From: an uncultured Mycoplasmataceae bacterium
Lineage (GTDB): Bacteria > Bacillota_I > Bacilli_A > Mycoplasmatales > Mycoplasmoidaceae
Assembly (NCBI GenBank): GCA_947429165.1
Contig: CANEON010000001.1
Location: 1-64,000, forward strand
Length of the DNA stretch: 64,000 nt
Reading direction: 5' to 3'
Each line of letters begins with the position of its first letter. Position 1 is the first letter of the stretch. Both the position numbers and the translations under genes were made by a program. The notes below the pieces were generated by a model. It searched no databases and was not told where the DNA came from. It was given only the letters and a program-made list of their open reading frames with translations. Below are positions 3,206 through 44,697 of this stretch, in pieces.

Positions 3206-3234
3206 TTCAAAAAAAAAAAAAAACAAAGTATAAA
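3206..3234 (+). promoter_or_regulatory. Poly(A)-spaced promoter, A15
   Basis: A run of 15 A (3209-3223) followed by CAAAG and TATAAA (3229-3234). A -35-like TTCAAA (3206-3211) is exactly 17 nt from the -10 box, and most of that spacer is poly(A). Changes in tract length would change -35/-10 spacing. The same geometry recurs at 23362-23390 and 43803-43832. Confidence 0.6.
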
Positions 3235-22924: not shown

Positions 22925-23284
22925 ATGTCATTTATTAATAAAAAAGGAAAAACTTCAGCTTGAAGACAAATGGTAATAAGACAACAAGTAAGCGACGTAT
23001 TCGCTTATGGTAAGATTACTACTACTATCACTAAAGCTAAGGAAACTCAAAAACACGTTGATAAAGTAATTACTTTAGCAAAGAAAAACACTTTAGCTTC
23101 TAACCGTCAAATTAGATCAATCATCTTAGCTACTAAAGATAAATCAGTTGATGAATTAGTTAAAACAATCAACGACTATGCTAAGAAGTATGCTAACCGC
23201 AATGGTGGTTATACAAGAGTGTTAAAACTTGGATCTAGACCAGGAGATAACACAGAAGAAGCAATTCTAGCTCTAGTTAAGTAA
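22925..23284 (+). CDS. rplQ: 50S ribosomal protein L17
   Basis: 119 residues, normal. Core segment GKITTTITKAKETQKHVDKV and end RPGDNTEEAILALV are conserved. Last gene of the superoperon; followed by a strong terminator. Confidence 0.96.
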
Positions 23285-23290
23285 AAAAAG

Positions 23291-23316
23291 TCAATGCTAA
23301 ATGCATTGATTTTTTA
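23291..23316 (+). terminator. Terminator of the S10-spc-alpha operon
   Basis: TCAATGC, loop TAAAT, GCATTGA, then a run of T. It lies 6 nt after the rplQ stop. Confidence 0.9.
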
Positions 23317-23361
23317 TTTGTCTTTTTTTGATTAAAAAATTAATCATTTTCAACCATTTTG

Positions 23362-23390
23362 TTGAAAAAAAAAAAAAAACAACATAAAAT
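23362..23390 (+). promoter_or_regulatory. Poly(A)-spaced promoter, A15
   Basis: TTGAAA (23362-23367), then poly(A) (15 A in total, 23365-23379), CAACA and TAAAAT (23385-23390). The -35/-10 spacing is exactly 17 nt. The ATG of the surface protein follows 10 nt after the -10 box, so the leader is very short. Confidence 0.65.
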
Positions 23391-23400
23391 ATATATTAAT

Positions 23401-24975
23401 ATGCAAAAAAGCAAGAAAACTAAAAGGGTCTTAAAAATTTTTGCTTTAACAACTGCTAGTATTTTAATGACTGGTGGTATTTTTAGTTATTCATCTTCTT
23501 GCTCGTGCAGCTCTCGAGTACCTTCAAAAGTTGATTTAGCTTGACTATTTAAAGAAGTTGGTAGTGATCAGTACGGACATGATAGTGCACGTTGATGTAA
23601 CAACGTTGGTCTTGATGGCAAAATCCCAGCAGAAAGAGAAATGAATGATAAATCGTGCTATGGTGGAAAATCTTTCTATGGTGAATCTGGTTATAGAGTA
23701 GATATGCCAAGTAGTGTTTTCTACACAAAAGAAAAAATTATTAGTTACTTACAAGAAGATTTAACTGCTGGTTTTCAAGATAAATATCCAAAATTGGATG
23801 GACAAGTTGATATTGAATTAGATTGTACTTCAAGTGATTCTAAACAACCAGAAGCACTTAACAAATGACATAAAGTTTTGGTTTCTGCAAAAGAAGATGC
23901 TGTTGGTTATTCTGGTTCATTTACTGTTTACTATTATTTAATTAATTCAGAAGCTAGAAATTTAGCAACCGATTTTTCAGAAACAGATATTAAATTTAAA
24001 TACACTATTGATGATGACCAAAACCCAATTAAGGATTTAGAAGTTTTAAATTATTCAAGTTTAAAATCTGCTATTCTTTATTCAAATCCAAATATTATAC
24101 CTGACGCCATTCATTTTCAATATTGTTTAGATAATTCAATTGCTGATACCGATCCAAACAAGTGAGTGGACTGAGAAGAACAATCAGCTCAACCAACTCC
24201 TGGCTCAGATAATCCGGTTTATGATAGCTCAAGAGAGTTCGGTGTAAGATGTTCTGATAGTTCTATTTCTGATATATGTAAAAAATTATGATCTACTCAA
24301 GAAAAGACATATGGAAGTAAAGAAGACAAGATGAGGTTAAGAATAACTCCTAATGAATATCTAGCTACATATCACGATCAGTTACCAATTGAATTCACAA
24401 TCAGTCTATATCGAAATGAAATTAAAAACGATCCTGGTTGGTATGCAAAATGAAATAACACGACACCGCACCAATTCATTGTAACTCCAACAAATGAAAG
24501 CTTAAAATATGCATTCGATGTTGAATATGAAAGTTATCAATTAATTCATTACTTAGATGCTTATCCTAATTCGTGAAAGTGAAATATTAACTCTGAATCA
24601 AAGGTTGCAACATTCTTAATAGATGATACGAATCCATATTATGCAACAAATAATGATTTAGATAAATCGAGTTATCAATTCTCTTATTCAACAGTTCAAA
24701 AAGTAAAATTCTTCGAAAGGTATTTAAAAGGTATAGATTGGGAAAATATATTCTATCAGAAACCAACAGAAGATGAAGTTAAAAGATTTATTGAATGGAG
24801 CGCTATCCAAAAATACGGTGAGAGCGAAAAAATATATTGGAATGAGTTGGAAGTCTCCGTCTCTAAAACAGATGCTCAAATAACAATAAAAAGCCCAAGT
24901 GGTCCATACACCTTAATGTCAACATTACATTATTATGGATTTGAACAAAAAATACAATACAAATTAATAAATTAA
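23401..24975 (+). CDS. Surface lipoprotein A, YxGS/WVDW family
   Basis: 524 residues. A signal sequence with a Ser/Cys-rich end (FSYSSSC) suggests a lipoprotein. Family landmarks: a module with WHKVLVSAKEDAVGYSGSFT and a following YYYL at about residues 158-182, then WVDW after about residue 257, a long middle domain with DTNPYYA, and a C-terminal module ending in a beta-strand (IQYKLIN). It is a paralogue of the gene at 25017-26489 and of the minus-strand gene at 44756-46292. Trp is mostly TGA, but several TGG codons cluster in 24430-24860. First gene of a three-gene operon behind the poly(A)-spaced promoter. Function unknown; probably an antigen or adhesin. Confidence 0.75.
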
Positions 24976-24992
24976 AATAGAAAGGCAAAATT

Positions 24993-25016
24993 ATGAAAAA
25001 CTTAAAAAAATTTTAA
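24993..25016 (+). CDS. Seven-codon leader ORF MKNLKKF
   Basis: ATG 24993 to TAA 25016, preceded by the Shine-Dalgarno AGAAAGG. The stop codon is directly followed by the ATG of surface protein B in the same frame. Either a tiny coupling leader peptide, or a nonsense change that cut an earlier, longer N-terminus. Confidence 0.4.
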   Translation: MKNLKKF

Positions 25017-26489
25017 ATGAAAAAATTAATATTATTCACAGTTACTCCGGTAACATTATTAGCAGTTGGTGGAACAACTACTGCTGTTGTATTAAATAAT
25101 ACAAAACACGTTAATGCTGAAAAAACTGATATCACATCTGTTTTTAGTAAATTATCTACATGAGCGAGCGATGTTACTCAAGGTGCGTCTCCAGCTATGA
25201 CTGCAGAAAACTGTTTAAATGATGAAGTATTCACTGGCGCTGGTATAAGAGAATCAAGCAAAAACTTCGTTTGAGATGCAGACAACTTACTTTACTACTT
25301 ACAAAAACAAGTTAATAACACTGAAGCAATAACTGGTAATCCTGCAATAGTTAATGAATTAGATGTTGTTTTCCAACCAAACTATAACACTGATCAAGCT
25401 AATAACAAATGACAAAAAGTAACTATTAGTGCAAACCAACACAGTGTTAACTATTCGGGCAGTATTAACTTGTATTACTACTTAGACAAAACTGACTATA
25501 AAAGAGATTTATCTGCTGATTTCACAAACACCGAAATTGACATGAGTGCTATGAGTGATTATGCTTCAGTATATGCTCCAACTAACGCGCAAATCTTAAA
25601 CGCAATCAAATCAAAAAATAGTAATTTGAATATTAACTCTGCTCACATCCAATATTGCTTAGACACAACAGCTACAACTCCTAACTGAGTTGATTGAGCA
25701 ACTTTTGATGCAGCAACAGGAAGTTATAAAACAAGTAACACTGCTGGCGTTAACGGAACTGCCGCTGATGAAACTAATTGATTTAGTTTATGAAGTACAG
25801 CCGGACATTACGGACGTACTGCTGCTGAAAAATCAACTCTTAAAGGTGCTTTAAGATTAATTTCAAATTCTCAAGTTTCTTCTTGTTATCCACAAAACTC
25901 AAGTGTTGAATTCTCTATTACTTTTGCTCGTCCATTTATTTATACACAACAAGGTTGAGGTTCAAGTGCTGCATGAGGAATAGATAAAAAACACGAATAT
26001 ATCGTTACTCCTGATGAAGGAAACTTTAAAACAACATTTGTTCAAGCATATGGCGATGGTAATACATATCCTTGATTTACTAAATTAAACAAAGTTCCTG
26101 ATTCTTGATCTTTCACAAGAGTTTCAGATGATTCTAAACTTTATGCAAACTTCCAAATGGATGGAACTAATCCGTATTTTGCTGCCTTTACATCAGAACC
26201 ATCAAAGAAAAATTACTTCTTATATGAAGTAATGTCAAAAATTGATTTTGCTGCTACATATGGTAAATTCTGACCAACTGAAGGCGTAAACTTCTATGCC
26301 AACCCAACTCAAAATGATGTTGTTAGCTATTTAACATATATGGTTGCTAAAGATACTGAGGTAGACCCAATTTATTGAGCTGAAGTAACTATCTCTATTA
26401 ACACATCTGACAAAACAATTACTTTAAGTGTTCCAAACTCTCTTCACTATAACGGTTCTAATTTAACTCTTAAATATACAATCGGATAG
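25017..26489 (+). CDS. Surface protein B, YxGS/WVDW family
   Basis: 490 residues. Signal peptide MKKLILFTVTPVTLLAVGG to about residue 36 (ends HVNAEK), without a Cys lipobox. Same order as protein A: segment KWQKVTISANQHSVNYSGSI followed by YYYL, then NWVDW, a middle domain with DGTNPYFA, and a C-terminal module ending VPNSLHYNGSNLTLKYTIG. Trp residues are almost all TGA. Its ribosome binding site actually serves the leader ORF just upstream, so translation probably depends on re-initiation. Stop is 3 nt before the next gene. Confidence 0.75.
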
Positions 26490-26492
26490 TTA

Positions 26493-28759
26493 ATGAGCAA
26501 ACAAAAGAGGAAGCTAAAAACAATGATTTTTTCTGCTGTTTTATTAAACAGTAGTTTATTGTCTTTAGTTCCTTCTTTTAATTCTCCGCAGAATAAGATT
26601 AATTCTCGTTCTACTAATCTTGAAAATGGAAAAACAAATATTAATTCCATTTTTAATGTTGGTGCAGAAACCGGAATTAAACCAATGATAGGTGTCACCG
26701 AAACATTGACAGACGACGAGATTCACGGACACCTTTATAAATATCTTAAAGAAAAGAATTTATTTAATCAATATCCCACTTTATTAAATGACTTAGTTTA
26801 CATAGTAAACTCTTCTACAAAAAAGATATTAATTAAAGCTCATAGTTCATCGGAAAAATATGAAGGACAGTTTGAATTAAGCTATTCAAATCTTTTTCCT
26901 AAAATCACACTTACCCAATTATTTTCTGGATTACCAAAAATTGAATCATCTTTAACAACTCCATCAAGAAAATCTTTAATTAGTGCTATATCAAATTATT
27001 TTGATAAATCAACTCAATATAACATTTATAAAAATGTTATTTCTTATTTAACTTTTAGTTTTCAAAATAATAAAGTTGAAATTCATTTACAAACAGTAGC
27101 AAAATATTGTGGAATAGTTGATGAAGGATCAGTTCTTCAAATTCCTTATCAAGTTAATACTCCAGCCTCATCTACTGATATCTGTGCAATCATTCCAGTT
27201 AACACTTATTTGAATTGTGCATCTACTGCAAGTAAAACTCCATGATCAACATTACCTACTTATGAAGAGTTTTGTTTAAAGTTAAAAGAACAATTTGGTC
27301 AAAGTTTACAAACTGACGCCCTTCAAATTAATATTGAAGATGCGTTCAATATTTGAGAAACACAATATAGATTAACAATTGTCCCTAGTAAGAATTCTTC
27401 TTACTATACAGGAAGCACTTGTATTATGTTTTATTTAAAAGACACAAGAGTTGCGTTAAATCAAGTAATTAAAGTTGGTCAAGATGTAGCTAATCCAATG
27501 CAAGTGTATAGAACAAAGAATGCTAGTGCTGCTAAATCTGGTGAAAACAAAATCATTAATATTATTGCTGCAGCAAATAATATTGATCCAGGAACATTAA
27601 TAAGCGACGACTTTTCTTTTACATATTCTTCTGGTGCTGGTGGAACTGAAACTATTGGGAATAAATTTACTCTTACAATAACAGTTAATAACAATTCAAG
27701 ATACTACAAAGGGTCTGTAACAATAAATTGTATTTATGTACAACAACCAGCAATTTTTGAAGTTACATGTCAAGAATTATTTGGTAATCAAGGTTCATAC
27801 AATTGATCAACAAACCAATTGTCTACAATCAGTAGCCAAAAATTTGCTTTTGAAAGAATGAATCCATACAATAATCAAGTTGGTATTGCTTATTCAAATG
27901 TTACTATGACCAACACCAACGATCCATACTTAAGCATTGGTTACAAAGTAAAATACCAAAATGTTGAATATGATGTTTGGGGAATTTTAGGTACAAACGA
28001 CATTCAAAAAACAAACTTAGCAACCGCAGAAGAAGATAAAGGTGCGCTTGCATTTGCAACAGCTAGTTTTAGTGGTACTTGTAAACTTTATGGAAAAATT
28101 GGACTCCCTTATACAATTCAATATTTTGGTAAGAATTGCTTTAGAAAACAATCTGGTGTAACTGACTTTATTTGATTAAAAAACCAGGGCAAGTATATGA
28201 TGACAAAGAATTAGATTTCCAATCATCATTCTATTCTGATGCTTTTTATGAATGCTCAGGAGTTAAAAGATGAAGTGTTCCCACTCGTATTCAAGATATT
28301 CCTGCTGAATGAGTTGGTGGAGCAGCAATCTCTATGCCCACATATTTTTTAAGTAGTAAAAAATATTATCCATACGCTAAATCAAATGGTAAGAATATTG
28401 CAAATAACTATCAGTTTGCAACATTATATGTTACTGAAAATTTATTAGAAACATATAAGCAAGATAGCACTTGAAAAGTAAAAGCAACAAATATTTTACC
28501 TATTCCTCATGTTTCGAAAATTATGGCTCCACAAGTGATAGCTACTTCAAACAGTACTGATCAACAAATATTTACAGCTTGAGTTACAACTAGTGCTCAA
28601 CAAGCATCTACAACATATGCTGATTTGTTAGCAAAAATTCAAGATAGTGACTCAATCTATAAATATGTTGTAGATAGAACTAATAAAACAATTACTATCT
28701 ATATAAAAGATAACCACTATTACTACGGAGAATTTACTGCTAACCTTGTATTAAACTAA
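26493..28759 (+). CDS. Surface protein C, interrupted by a -1 frameshift
   Basis: The first frame runs from ATG 26493 to TAG 28214 (573 residues). At 28178-28184 the zero frame reads TTA-AAA-AAC; a -1 shift here continues in an open frame for 191 more residues to TAA 28759, giving about 755 residues. The extra part ends in a beta module (VDRTNKTITIYIKDNHYYYG) of the kind that closes proteins A and B, so both frames belong to one gene. The N-terminus has a signal sequence; modules like TLTDDEIHGHLYKYL and SSSEKYEGQFELSY match the gene at 3262-4386. Last gene of the operon. Whether the shift is programmed, phase-variable or an error is open. Confidence 0.7.
28178..28184 (+). other. Slippery heptamer A-AAA-AAC
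   Basis: AAAAAAC in the correct phase (TTA AAA AAC) for -1 ribosomal frameshifting, at the exact point where the zero frame is about to close and the -1 frame becomes the family-like frame. One extra A would fuse the frames at DNA level. Confidence 0.6.
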
Positions 28760-28789
28760 TTATGGCAGCTACACAGTCAACTATATAAA

Positions 28790-29677
28790 TTAAGCTTTAT
28801 TTTTTAAATCGTAATAGCCTAAGAATACATTAGTATTCTTGGCTTTTTTATTTGGTATATGATAACGTTTAGTTTTTGATTGCATTAAATAATGGAAACA
28901 AATAAAAGAAGACACGACTCCATAACTTATTAATAATGGAATAAATATTATGTAAGGGAACGGAATGCCCTTAAATATAATTCCGATTACATAGTAATCT
29001 CCACCTTCTGCCCAATCCCCTGGTTTCATTCCTGAAACAAAGTGATTAATATCAAACGAATAAGCCATGATGATTACATATAAATAAAATGAAAACGTTG
29101 TTACATTAGTTCATAAGAATGTTTTTCATTTTAATGAAGGGGTATTTAATCAAATACCAACAGCAATAACTAAATTTAAGAAGTGAAGAATAAACATCAT
29201 TCTGTATGGCGGTCTTCCTAAGAAGATAAATTCAGCATTAATGGCTACTAAGTTATCGGCATTAAACACCATTCCAGCATAAGTAAATATCGTTCCGATT
29301 ATTGCTGGTCCGCAAAAGAAAGATGCAATCTTTCTTGATCTATCACATATAAGACTAATGCACATCCCCAAGAAAAAGAATGGGCATAAATCAGTAAGCA
29401 TAGATTTACTTTTAAAGAAATCGTCTCATGGTCCTACATCGATTCCAGGATCACTATAGTATGGTAATATTTCTCCCGTTGATAAATAACGTTGAGCTCC
29501 CATACAATCTCACATTCATCTACCAAACACAAAATAAATAAGACCTAAAATAGAAATTACTAATCAGAATACGTAATAATTTGTGAATTTCTTTATATAT
29601 GGATGAACAAACACTTGCAAACCACATATGGCCGCTACTAAAATAATTAAAACTATTGCAAATGCTGTTAATGACAT
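28790..29677 (-). CDS. Polytopic membrane protein of unknown function
   Basis: 295 residues. About seven hydrophobic segments are visible, starting MSLTAFAIVLIILVAAICGL, with aromatic/charged loops such as GRWMWDCMGAQRYL. It resembles the multi-spanning integral membrane proteins found as single copies in many mycoplasmas (DUF5378-type), but I cannot name it firmly. A TATAAT lies 10-11 nt before the ATG. It is divergently arranged with the sialic acid operon across a 62-bp gap holding an inverted repeat, so joint regulation is possible. TGA codes for at least six Trp. Confidence 0.65.
28816..28849 (+). terminator. Terminator of the surface operon, inside the convergent gene
   Basis: Hairpin of AGCCTAAGAATAC and GTATTCTTGGCT around ATTA, followed by TTTTTTA on the plus strand. 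The stem lies within the last 20 codons of the minus-strand membrane protein gene, so one sequence codes on one strand and terminates on the other. Confidence 0.8.
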
Positions 29678-29692
29678 TGATGGAATTATTAT

Positions 29693-29707
29693 ATAAGAAG
29701 TTCTTAT
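29693..29707. promoter_or_regulatory. Inverted repeat in divergent promoter region
   Basis: ATAAGAA-G-TTCTTAT, a perfect 7-bp inverted repeat with a one-base centre, in the 62-bp gap between the membrane protein gene and the dehydrogenase. Its position, overlapping the divergent promoters, suits an operator. Confidence 0.4.
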
Positions 29708-43129: not shown

Positions 43130-43521
43130 TGGAAAAAGTTTCATACAAAGGATTAGGTAGAAGAAAAACTTCTGTTGCTAAGGTAATATTAACACCTGGT
43201 ACTGGTAAGATTTTGATTAACTCAAAAACTCCAGAAGAATACTTTCCTAATGCATTAGTAATTAAGGATATGAAACAACCATTAGAAATTACTAACACTA
43301 CTAAAGAATTTGATATCAACGTTAAAGTTTCAGGTGGTGGTTTCAATGGTCAAGCAGGTGCCATTAGATTAGGTATTGCTCGTGCTTTAGTTGAAGCAAA
43401 TGCTGAATCTAAAACAGCATTAAAGAAAAAAAAAATGATGACACGTGACTCTCGTGCTAAAGAACGTAAGAAATACGGTAAATACGGTGCACGTAGAAGT
43501 CCACAATTTACAAAACGTTAA
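43129..43521 (+). CDS. rpsI: 30S ribosomal protein S9
   Basis: 130 residues, normal. The extended C-terminal tail reaching P-site tRNA ends in RRSPQFTKR, and the core contains [12 protein letters not shown] and [19 protein letters not shown]. One-base overlap with rplM; followed 16 nt later by tRNA-Ile. Confidence 0.97.
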
Positions 43522-43767: not shown

Positions 43768-43802
43768 TATAAAAATTAATTGAAAAGTAATATAAGTTTT
43801 TA

Positions 43803-43832
43803 CTCAAAAAAAAAAAAAAAACAAAGTAAAAT
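43803..43832 (+). promoter_or_regulatory. Poly(A)-spaced promoter, A16
   Basis: CTCAAA (43803-43808), poly(A) of 16 (43806-43821), CAAAG, then TAAAAT (43827-43832). The 5-nt gap between tract and -10 box is the same as in the two other copies, but with 16 A the -35-like element is 18 nt away instead of 17. Confidence 0.6.
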
Positions 43833-43841
43833 ATAAGTATT

Positions 43842-44684
43842 ATGAAATCTAGAAATAAAAAAATTTTAATGTGAACTTGTACAATAATTCCTATCATTGC
43901 TGTTAGCTTTGGAGGTATTGTTTATTCTGTTGCGGGTAGTAAAAATAATGATTCATATCCAACACAAATGTATCTTGTTGATGAATTAAATGAAATTAAT
44001 GGAATAGATAATTTTGCTAATTTTGATTTTAGTTTACTCAAAGATAATATAGCTTTTGAACCTTCTCATAAATATTCATCATATGTTGATCCGGATCTTC
44101 CTGATGATCCATCACAAATGTATGATTACCATAATGCAATCACTGCTGATTTTGCTAACCATATTAATGATGGACTACCTAATTTTATAAAAGCTTCATT
44201 CTTGTGTTATTTCATGTGTATTTATATGGGATATGCTTTCAGTACAGAAATAGACCAATCATATAAACTTTTAAACGATACATATGTAAAGGATTTTTCT
44301 TGAAATGTTTATAATTTTTCGACAATAAAATATACTAAACATACTTCTCCAGAATCTTTTGATCAATTTTCGTTTAGTGGTGAATTTGAATTGTATTTTA
44401 AAGCTGCTCCATTTGGGACAAGAATCGATGAAGAAGAAATAGATGTTAAAATTGAAGTTTATGATATACCTTTTTCATTTATGAATTTAGTTAATCTTGG
44501 CTTTGTATTTTTGGGCGTTGGATGTAGTTATGATTTCGAAACAGAAATTTGCCATACAGCAACTTATGTAAATGGCTCTTTACAACAAGAAAACGAAATG
44601 TCAGACTTTTATTTATATTCTTTTCCTGGCACTCCTTGAAATGATATTTTTTCTGACATTGATTTATTATTAATGGAAGATTAA
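43842..44684 (+). CDS. Membrane-anchored or secreted protein D
   Basis: 280 residues, no recognised family. One N-terminal hydrophobic segment (residues 8-32, WTCTIIPIIAVSFGGIVYSV) and an acidic outer part. Two inner segments (FLCYFMCIYMGYAF, FMNLVNLGFVFLGVGC) are hydrophobic enough to insert in a membrane or form a core. Start ATG is 9 nt after the -10 box of the poly(A)-spaced promoter. Trp is TGA. Confidence 0.65.
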
Positions 44685-44697
44685 GAAACCAATTACA

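Follow-up and report, generated by a model that had tools for sequence, protein, structure and literature searches.

Poly(A) and poly(T) promoter spacers as candidate slip-strand switches of surface-protein genes in a group of uncultured mycoplasmas

The first 64,000 nucleotides of contig CANEON010000001.1 from an uncultured Mycoplasmataceae bacterium (assembly GCA_947429165.1; this stretch is called the window here) contain three long poly(A) tracts, each situated between a -35-like element and the -10 box before a gene for a signal-peptide surface protein. Judging from sequence comparison, we consider it highly probable that these tracts are slip-strand phase switches acting via the length of the promoter spacer, in the manner of the vlp genes of Mycoplasma hyorhinis. 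Such a switch had been proposed in an initial annotation of the window, and it is supported by the recurrence of the same architecture, tens of times, before surface genes of sister species, as well as by length differences between orthologs and near-identical paralogs and by a complementary homopolymer in a sister species. With less assurance, we favor the broader view that this uncultured group runs much of its surface repertoire, BspA-type leucine-rich repeat (LRR) lipoproteins at up to 22 loci per genome, through a shared homopolymer-spacer promoter, poly(A) or poly(T), in which the -35 (TTGC) and the -10 on either side stay the same and the spacer length alone would be the switch.

Results

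Runs of 15, 15 and 16 A were located at exactly 3209-3223, 23365-23379 and 43806-43821, with a gap of 5 nt between tract and box in all three cases (CAAAG, CAACA and CAAAG, followed by TATAAA, TAAAAT and TAAAAT). Spacers measure 17, 17 and 18 nt if TTCAAA, TTGAAA and CTCAAA are taken as the -35 hexamers. The tracts precede open reading frames (ORFs) which start 38, 21 and 20 nt past the run and encode N-terminal signal peptides, and the window holds no further poly(A) of such length, the sole other homopolymer of at least 9 nt being an A10 at 43426-43435. In all these respects, the initial annotation proved accurate. The tract lengths far exceed what chance would give and stand apart from those of the shorter runs: the number of A-runs in the window declines geometrically up to a length of 8, there is one run of 10 and none of 11-14, and the three tracts follow. 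By Markov extrapolation, 0.013-0.018 A-runs of at least 15 nt are expected in the window and about 0.3-0.4 on both strands of the whole genome. A signal-peptide-like N-terminus is present in about 13 of the 64 window genes, and the 60-nt zones upstream of these 13 genes cover about 0.6% of the two strands of the window; the probability of three out of three tracts falling into such zones by chance is roughly 2e-7 by simple arithmetic.

The assembly that holds the window (G000) comprises 709,615 bases in 7 contigs and belongs to a mollicute that reads TGA as tryptophan, with ORFs read under code 4. The nearest matches of its RpoC were found in metagenome assemblies of uncultured Mycoplasmataceae or Mycoplasmatales (98%, 86% and 85% identity), and assemblies labelled Ureaplasma and Malacoplasma were more distant (65% and 63%). 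Six sister species (G030-G035, with G030 as the closest relative) were surveyed by examining the surroundings of nearly all A-runs of at least 13 nt, of which each genome has 9-22. The placement of the repeat between the two boxes, with the -10 exactly 5 nt past the tract in the window and -35-like bases just before it, is conserved in these six species. In five of them the promoter takes the form TTTGTTGC-A(14-25)-(C)GAG-TATAAAT; TTTGTTGC stands before the run in their 64 tracts, CGAG, CAAG or GAG and then TATAAAT stand after it, and the start codon usually lies within about 35 nt. The remaining species, G031, has a mirror-image arrangement with poly(T) on the coding strand: TTGCG, T15-21, GTTAAAATA or GTTATAATG and then ATG, in 16 units, the bases directly after the run being GTTAAAAT or GTTATAAT. 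Of these 16 units, 15 encode one common signal peptide, MKKIKTINKLLSSLTLLSPL, or a sequence closely similar to it. The two forms share a TTGC preceding the run and a -10 box that follows at a distance of 2-5 nt.

Among 95 genomes of the family from 11 genera, the pattern A13-N1-7-TATAAW was concentrated in this subclade and at control level otherwise, and the T-form with TAWAAT was found in 22 of the 95 genomes, with few control matches. Several of the inspected poly(T)-TATAAT/TAAAAT sites of the family (e.g., L297, L309, L310 and L293) lie before surface genes. One such site precedes rpoA (L298), so the places of the T-form are not surface genes alone.

When both orientations are counted, 4/4, 7/7, 15/16, 9/11, 14/18, 9/10 and 8/9 of the scorable tracts in the seven genomes have a signal-peptide ORF at a distance of no more than 60 nt, compared with 13 of the 64 window genes having such an N-terminus, and several tracts without such an ORF stand before decayed lipoprotein genes with a broken frame. 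Many of the tract-driven genes in the sister species encode BspA-type LRR proteins, with LRR_5 E-values of about 1e-30 to 1e-61 in those tested. The window also carries a BspA-type LRR lipoprotein gene at 802-1650 on the minus strand, which has a perfect TTGACA-16-TATAAT promoter and no tract and can be regarded as a natural unswitched control; this textbook promoter indicates that the genome uses two-box promoters. In G032, a lipoprotein-like gene (G032:C3:23294-25207, L172) combines an A18 promoter tract with a G8 run in the codons of its signal peptide, the frame being closed in the assembly, and possibly can slip at two places, with an effect on transcription at the first and on translation at the second.

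Tract length varies more than other sequence, both between species and between paralogs. The site at 23365 has A15 in G000, A20 in G030 and A16 in G035, and the tract of P0001, the gene behind the first tract, has A15 in G000 versus A20 in the G032 ortholog. Within genomes, 39 pairs of tracts are followed by DNA of at least 90% identity, and 32 of these pairs show length differences, which range from 1 to 4 nt. These lengths were all read from assembly consensus sequences. As a control, short A or T runs (6-8 nt) were aligned between G000 and G030: of 39 such runs, 30 were unchanged, 2 differed and 7 were interrupted. The A10 at 43426-43435 sits inside the ribosomal protein gene rpsI, where G030 reads AAAAAGAAAA; this interruption would reduce slippage in an essential gene.

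A genome-wide search retrieved only one further run of at least 11 A on either strand, an A14 on contig 1 at 169,962-169,975 (L006 1502-1515). It is flanked by a signal-peptide ORF and a membrane-protein ORF that are oriented divergently, and corresponds to A25 in G034. We rejected it as a member of the set because the -10 geometry is absent on either strand.

The features of the three units are compiled in Table 1. P0001 and P0003 gave no Pfam or NCBIfam match, LRR_5 included, and P0002 likewise matched no Pfam or NCBIfam family. The G032 ortholog of P0001 is 80% identical, and a G030 relative with BspA LRR_5 repeats is 42% identical. For P0003, one relative with 67% identity was found, in G032, elsewhere in that genome. 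The partner of P0002 at the same place in G035 is 40% identical. Given the short distance between its -10 box and the ATG, the P0002 transcript would be nearly leaderless. The gene directly downstream (25017-26489) is a paralogue of P0002, and the co-oriented genes up to 28759 probably form one operon with it. The next strong plus-strand terminator-like site after this cluster is at 28819-28842, with a weaker one inside the proposed unit at 26533-26554. Tract 2 may switch a surface cluster of four genes (23401-28759).

Table 1. Features of the three poly(A) units; positions refer to the window
Feature	Position	Strand	Remark
Proposed -35 TTCAAA, running into the 5' end of tract 1	3206..3211	+	Weak consensus match; position backed by TTGTTGC/TTGC of relatives
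Poly(A) tract 1, A15	3209..3223	+	A20 in the G032 ortholog
Proposed -10 TATAAA	3229..3234	+	Relatives have a comparable box here
P0001, signal-peptide surface protein, 374 aa	3262..4386	+	Ortholog in G032 (80% identity), LRR-bearing relative in G030 (42%)
Intrinsic terminator-like hairpin closing the upstream gene	23285..23315	+	
Proposed -35 TTGAAA	23362..23367	+	5/6 match to TTGACA
Poly(A) tract 2, A15	23365..23379	+	Syntenic tract A20 in G030, A16 in G035
Proposed -10 TAAAAT	23385..23390	+	10 nt before ATG
P0002, signal-peptide (lipoprotein-like) surface protein, 524 aa	23401..24975	+	
Co-oriented downstream genes (25017-26489, 26493-28214, 28172-28759)	25017..28759	+	Probably one unit with P0002
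Proposed -35 CTCAAA (weak)	43803..43808	+	
Poly(A) tract 3, A16	43806..43821	+	Entire unit absent from G030
Proposed -10 TAAAAT	43827..43832	+	G032 ortholog has TATAAT at the same place, no tract
P0003, signal-peptide surface protein, 280 aa	43842..44684	+	

Discussion

In the mechanism proposed here, the poly(A) tract would make up most of the spacer between a -35-like element (TTG, TTC or CTC plus the first As of the run) and the -10 box of a surface-protein promoter. Slippage of the polymerase on the run during replication may add or remove As, and each change of length would alter the spacing and the rotational phase of the -35 relative to the -10. RNA polymerase is predicted to start well only at some lengths, with a spacer of about 17-18 nt that corresponds to A15-A16 in G000, and poorly or not at all at others, whereby individual surface proteins would be switched on and off at random among cells. 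With a separate tract for every gene, the 3-22 units of a genome could yield many surface combinations. In G031, the poly(T) between TTGCG and TTAAAAT appears to do the same job, which suggests that what matters is how long the spacer is, and not which bases it presents on the coding strand.

Several points weigh against this interpretation, and the -35 element is its weakest part. The hexamers that the initial annotation had named as overlapping -35-like elements are present at the places given in Table 1, but they match the consensus poorly and the identity of the true -35 is uncertain; with them, many spacers of the relatives would measure 19-22 nt, in agreement with promoters that are OFF or else with a wrongly assigned -35. 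A consensus promoter scan of 23280-29700 gave no excess over shuffled sequences (31 sites versus a mean of 35.5), and a hexamer match alone was therefore not used as evidence, even though TTGAAA-17-TAAAAT at 23362-23390 ties for the top score within that scan. Given the weak hexamers and the lack of excess, the assignment of the -35 rests on the comparison with relatives. In these, TTGTTGC is conserved just upstream of the tract and fits TTGCAA better than the hexamers named earlier; with TTGCAA as the -35, most of the relatives' spacers measure 17-22 nt.

The evidence for length change comes from assemblies of different species and from paralogs; within-population switching and length-dependent expression are predicted. 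The consensus of a metagenome-assembled genome (MAG) may also err by one or more nucleotides at long homopolymers: single-nucleotide differences in length could be assembly noise, whereas differences of at least 4 nt are unlikely to be. The linker at the P0002 site differs between species. In the G032 ortholog of P0003 the tract is missing, yet TATAAT stands where the window has TAAAAT; the position of the -10 is therefore supported independently of the tract, which would be an optional addition. Moreover, the whole P0003 unit (43796-44696) is cleanly absent from G030, the DNA of which is about 95% identical there. The gap lies between the tRNA-Ala terminator and the next gene, where G030 has AAAAAAAAGTAAAATA, perhaps a promoter remnant. 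In view of this promoter-like sequence, we disfavor a mobile cassette, for which terminal repeats were not systematically searched, and consider loss of the P0003 gene in G030 to be more likely. The tractless ortholog and the absent unit together indicate that the switch has been gained and lost.

It is improbable, in our view, that the tract is instead a fixed, stiff and bent A-tract that aids RNA polymerase, either like an upstream promoter (UP) element or by rigidity of the spacer, and that its length drifts without switching. The stiffness of an A-tract would be equal in either orientation and would also account for the poly(T) form, and A/T-rich DNA could compensate for weak -35 hexamers. 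However, the tract sits between the -35 and the -10 and not upstream of the -35, its length differs by 5 nt from one ortholog to another and by 1-4 nt within sets of near-identical paralogs, and such tracts are found almost only before surface genes, another BspA gene of the window having an ordinary spacer. A position of the tract in the transcribed leader, with an effect after initiation by RNA polymerase slippage or on translation or mRNA stability, appears very improbable. A-runs in leaders can affect translation, which counts in favor of such an effect, but a -10-like box follows the tract in every unit of the window and in most relatives, it lies 9-10 nt before the ATG in two of the window units, and no TATAAT-like consensus stands before the tract in the relatives.

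Even less credit is given to chance or artefact, by which the tracts would have no connection with the genes and would stem from misassembly, from the tails of terminators or from remains of mobile elements. This would agree with the frequent breaks of the relatives' MAG contigs near tracts and with the clean presence/absence difference of the P0003 unit relative to the closest relative. In G032-G035, contig ends (L175, L180, L181, L189, L195, L205, L207 and L216) are often found no more than about 300 bp from a tract; such ends fit repeated leader sequences and probably stem from the leader and signal-peptide sequences repeated among paralogs. In addition, the same architecture is present in seven separately assembled species, and only 0.01-0.02 such runs are expected in the window. 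Terminator tails were rejected since none of the genes on the minus strand has its end at a tract; the nearest terminators are hairpins of their own, situated upstream.

Slip-strand switching by the promoter spacer is already known and is not new as a mechanism. What appears to be new is the combination of dispersed BspA-type surface genes under a shared homopolymer-spacer promoter, poly(A) as well as poly(T), in an uncultured clade; our literature search, which mostly did not cover subscription papers, found no description of such a clade-wide BspA system. Promoter-spacer phase variation would thereby reach beyond a few pathogens and include a clade of uncultured mycoplasmas that is represented by metagenomes only. 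This clade offers a natural experiment in the form of tens of promoters whose boxes are the same while their spacers, made of A or T, vary in length. Existing reads could address the rate of tract switching in natural populations, and also whether spacer length or A-tract structure sets the strength of mycoplasma promoters.

Among known systems, the porA gene of Neisseria meningitidis likewise has a homopolymer between -35 and -10, and its expression is graded by the length of this spacer (PMC3899988), but it is a single gene of an unrelated bacterium and its repeat is poly(G). In Mycoplasma mycoides, a simple repeat lies between the -35 and the -10 of the surface lipoprotein gene vmm (PMC10502178), in that case a TA dinucleotide repeat and not a homopolymer as in G000. 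Homopolymers in the 5' untranslated regions of the spma surface genes of Mycoplasma agalactiae are suspected switches (PMC2824730); they consist of poly(G), with no established position relative to the promoter boxes. Candidatus Mycoplasma girerdii is, like the organisms studied here, an uncultivated mycoplasma with BspA-like surface proteins, and variation in repeat length was seen in its metagenomic reads (PMC5476646). Its repeats are mostly dinucleotides that shift the coding frame, in contrast to the promoter-spacer homopolymers described here. The closest likeness is to vlp of Mycoplasma (Mesomycoplasma) hyorhinis, a surface-lipoprotein gene family with poly(A) in the promoter and an own promoter for each gene; a passage of PMC10502178, citing Citti and Wise 1995, describes how the tract gains or loses A at random, which turns the genes ON or OFF. 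The length dependence was shown for vlp, whereas it is presumed for the G000 tracts. While vlp forms a single cluster, the three genes of the window are dispersed at distances of 20 kb and encode proteins without a Pfam or NCBIfam match, and the tract-driven genes of the relatives encode BspA-type LRR proteins, gene kinds that were judged without direct comparison with Vlp sequences, in a different lineage that additionally has a poly(T) version of the promoter.
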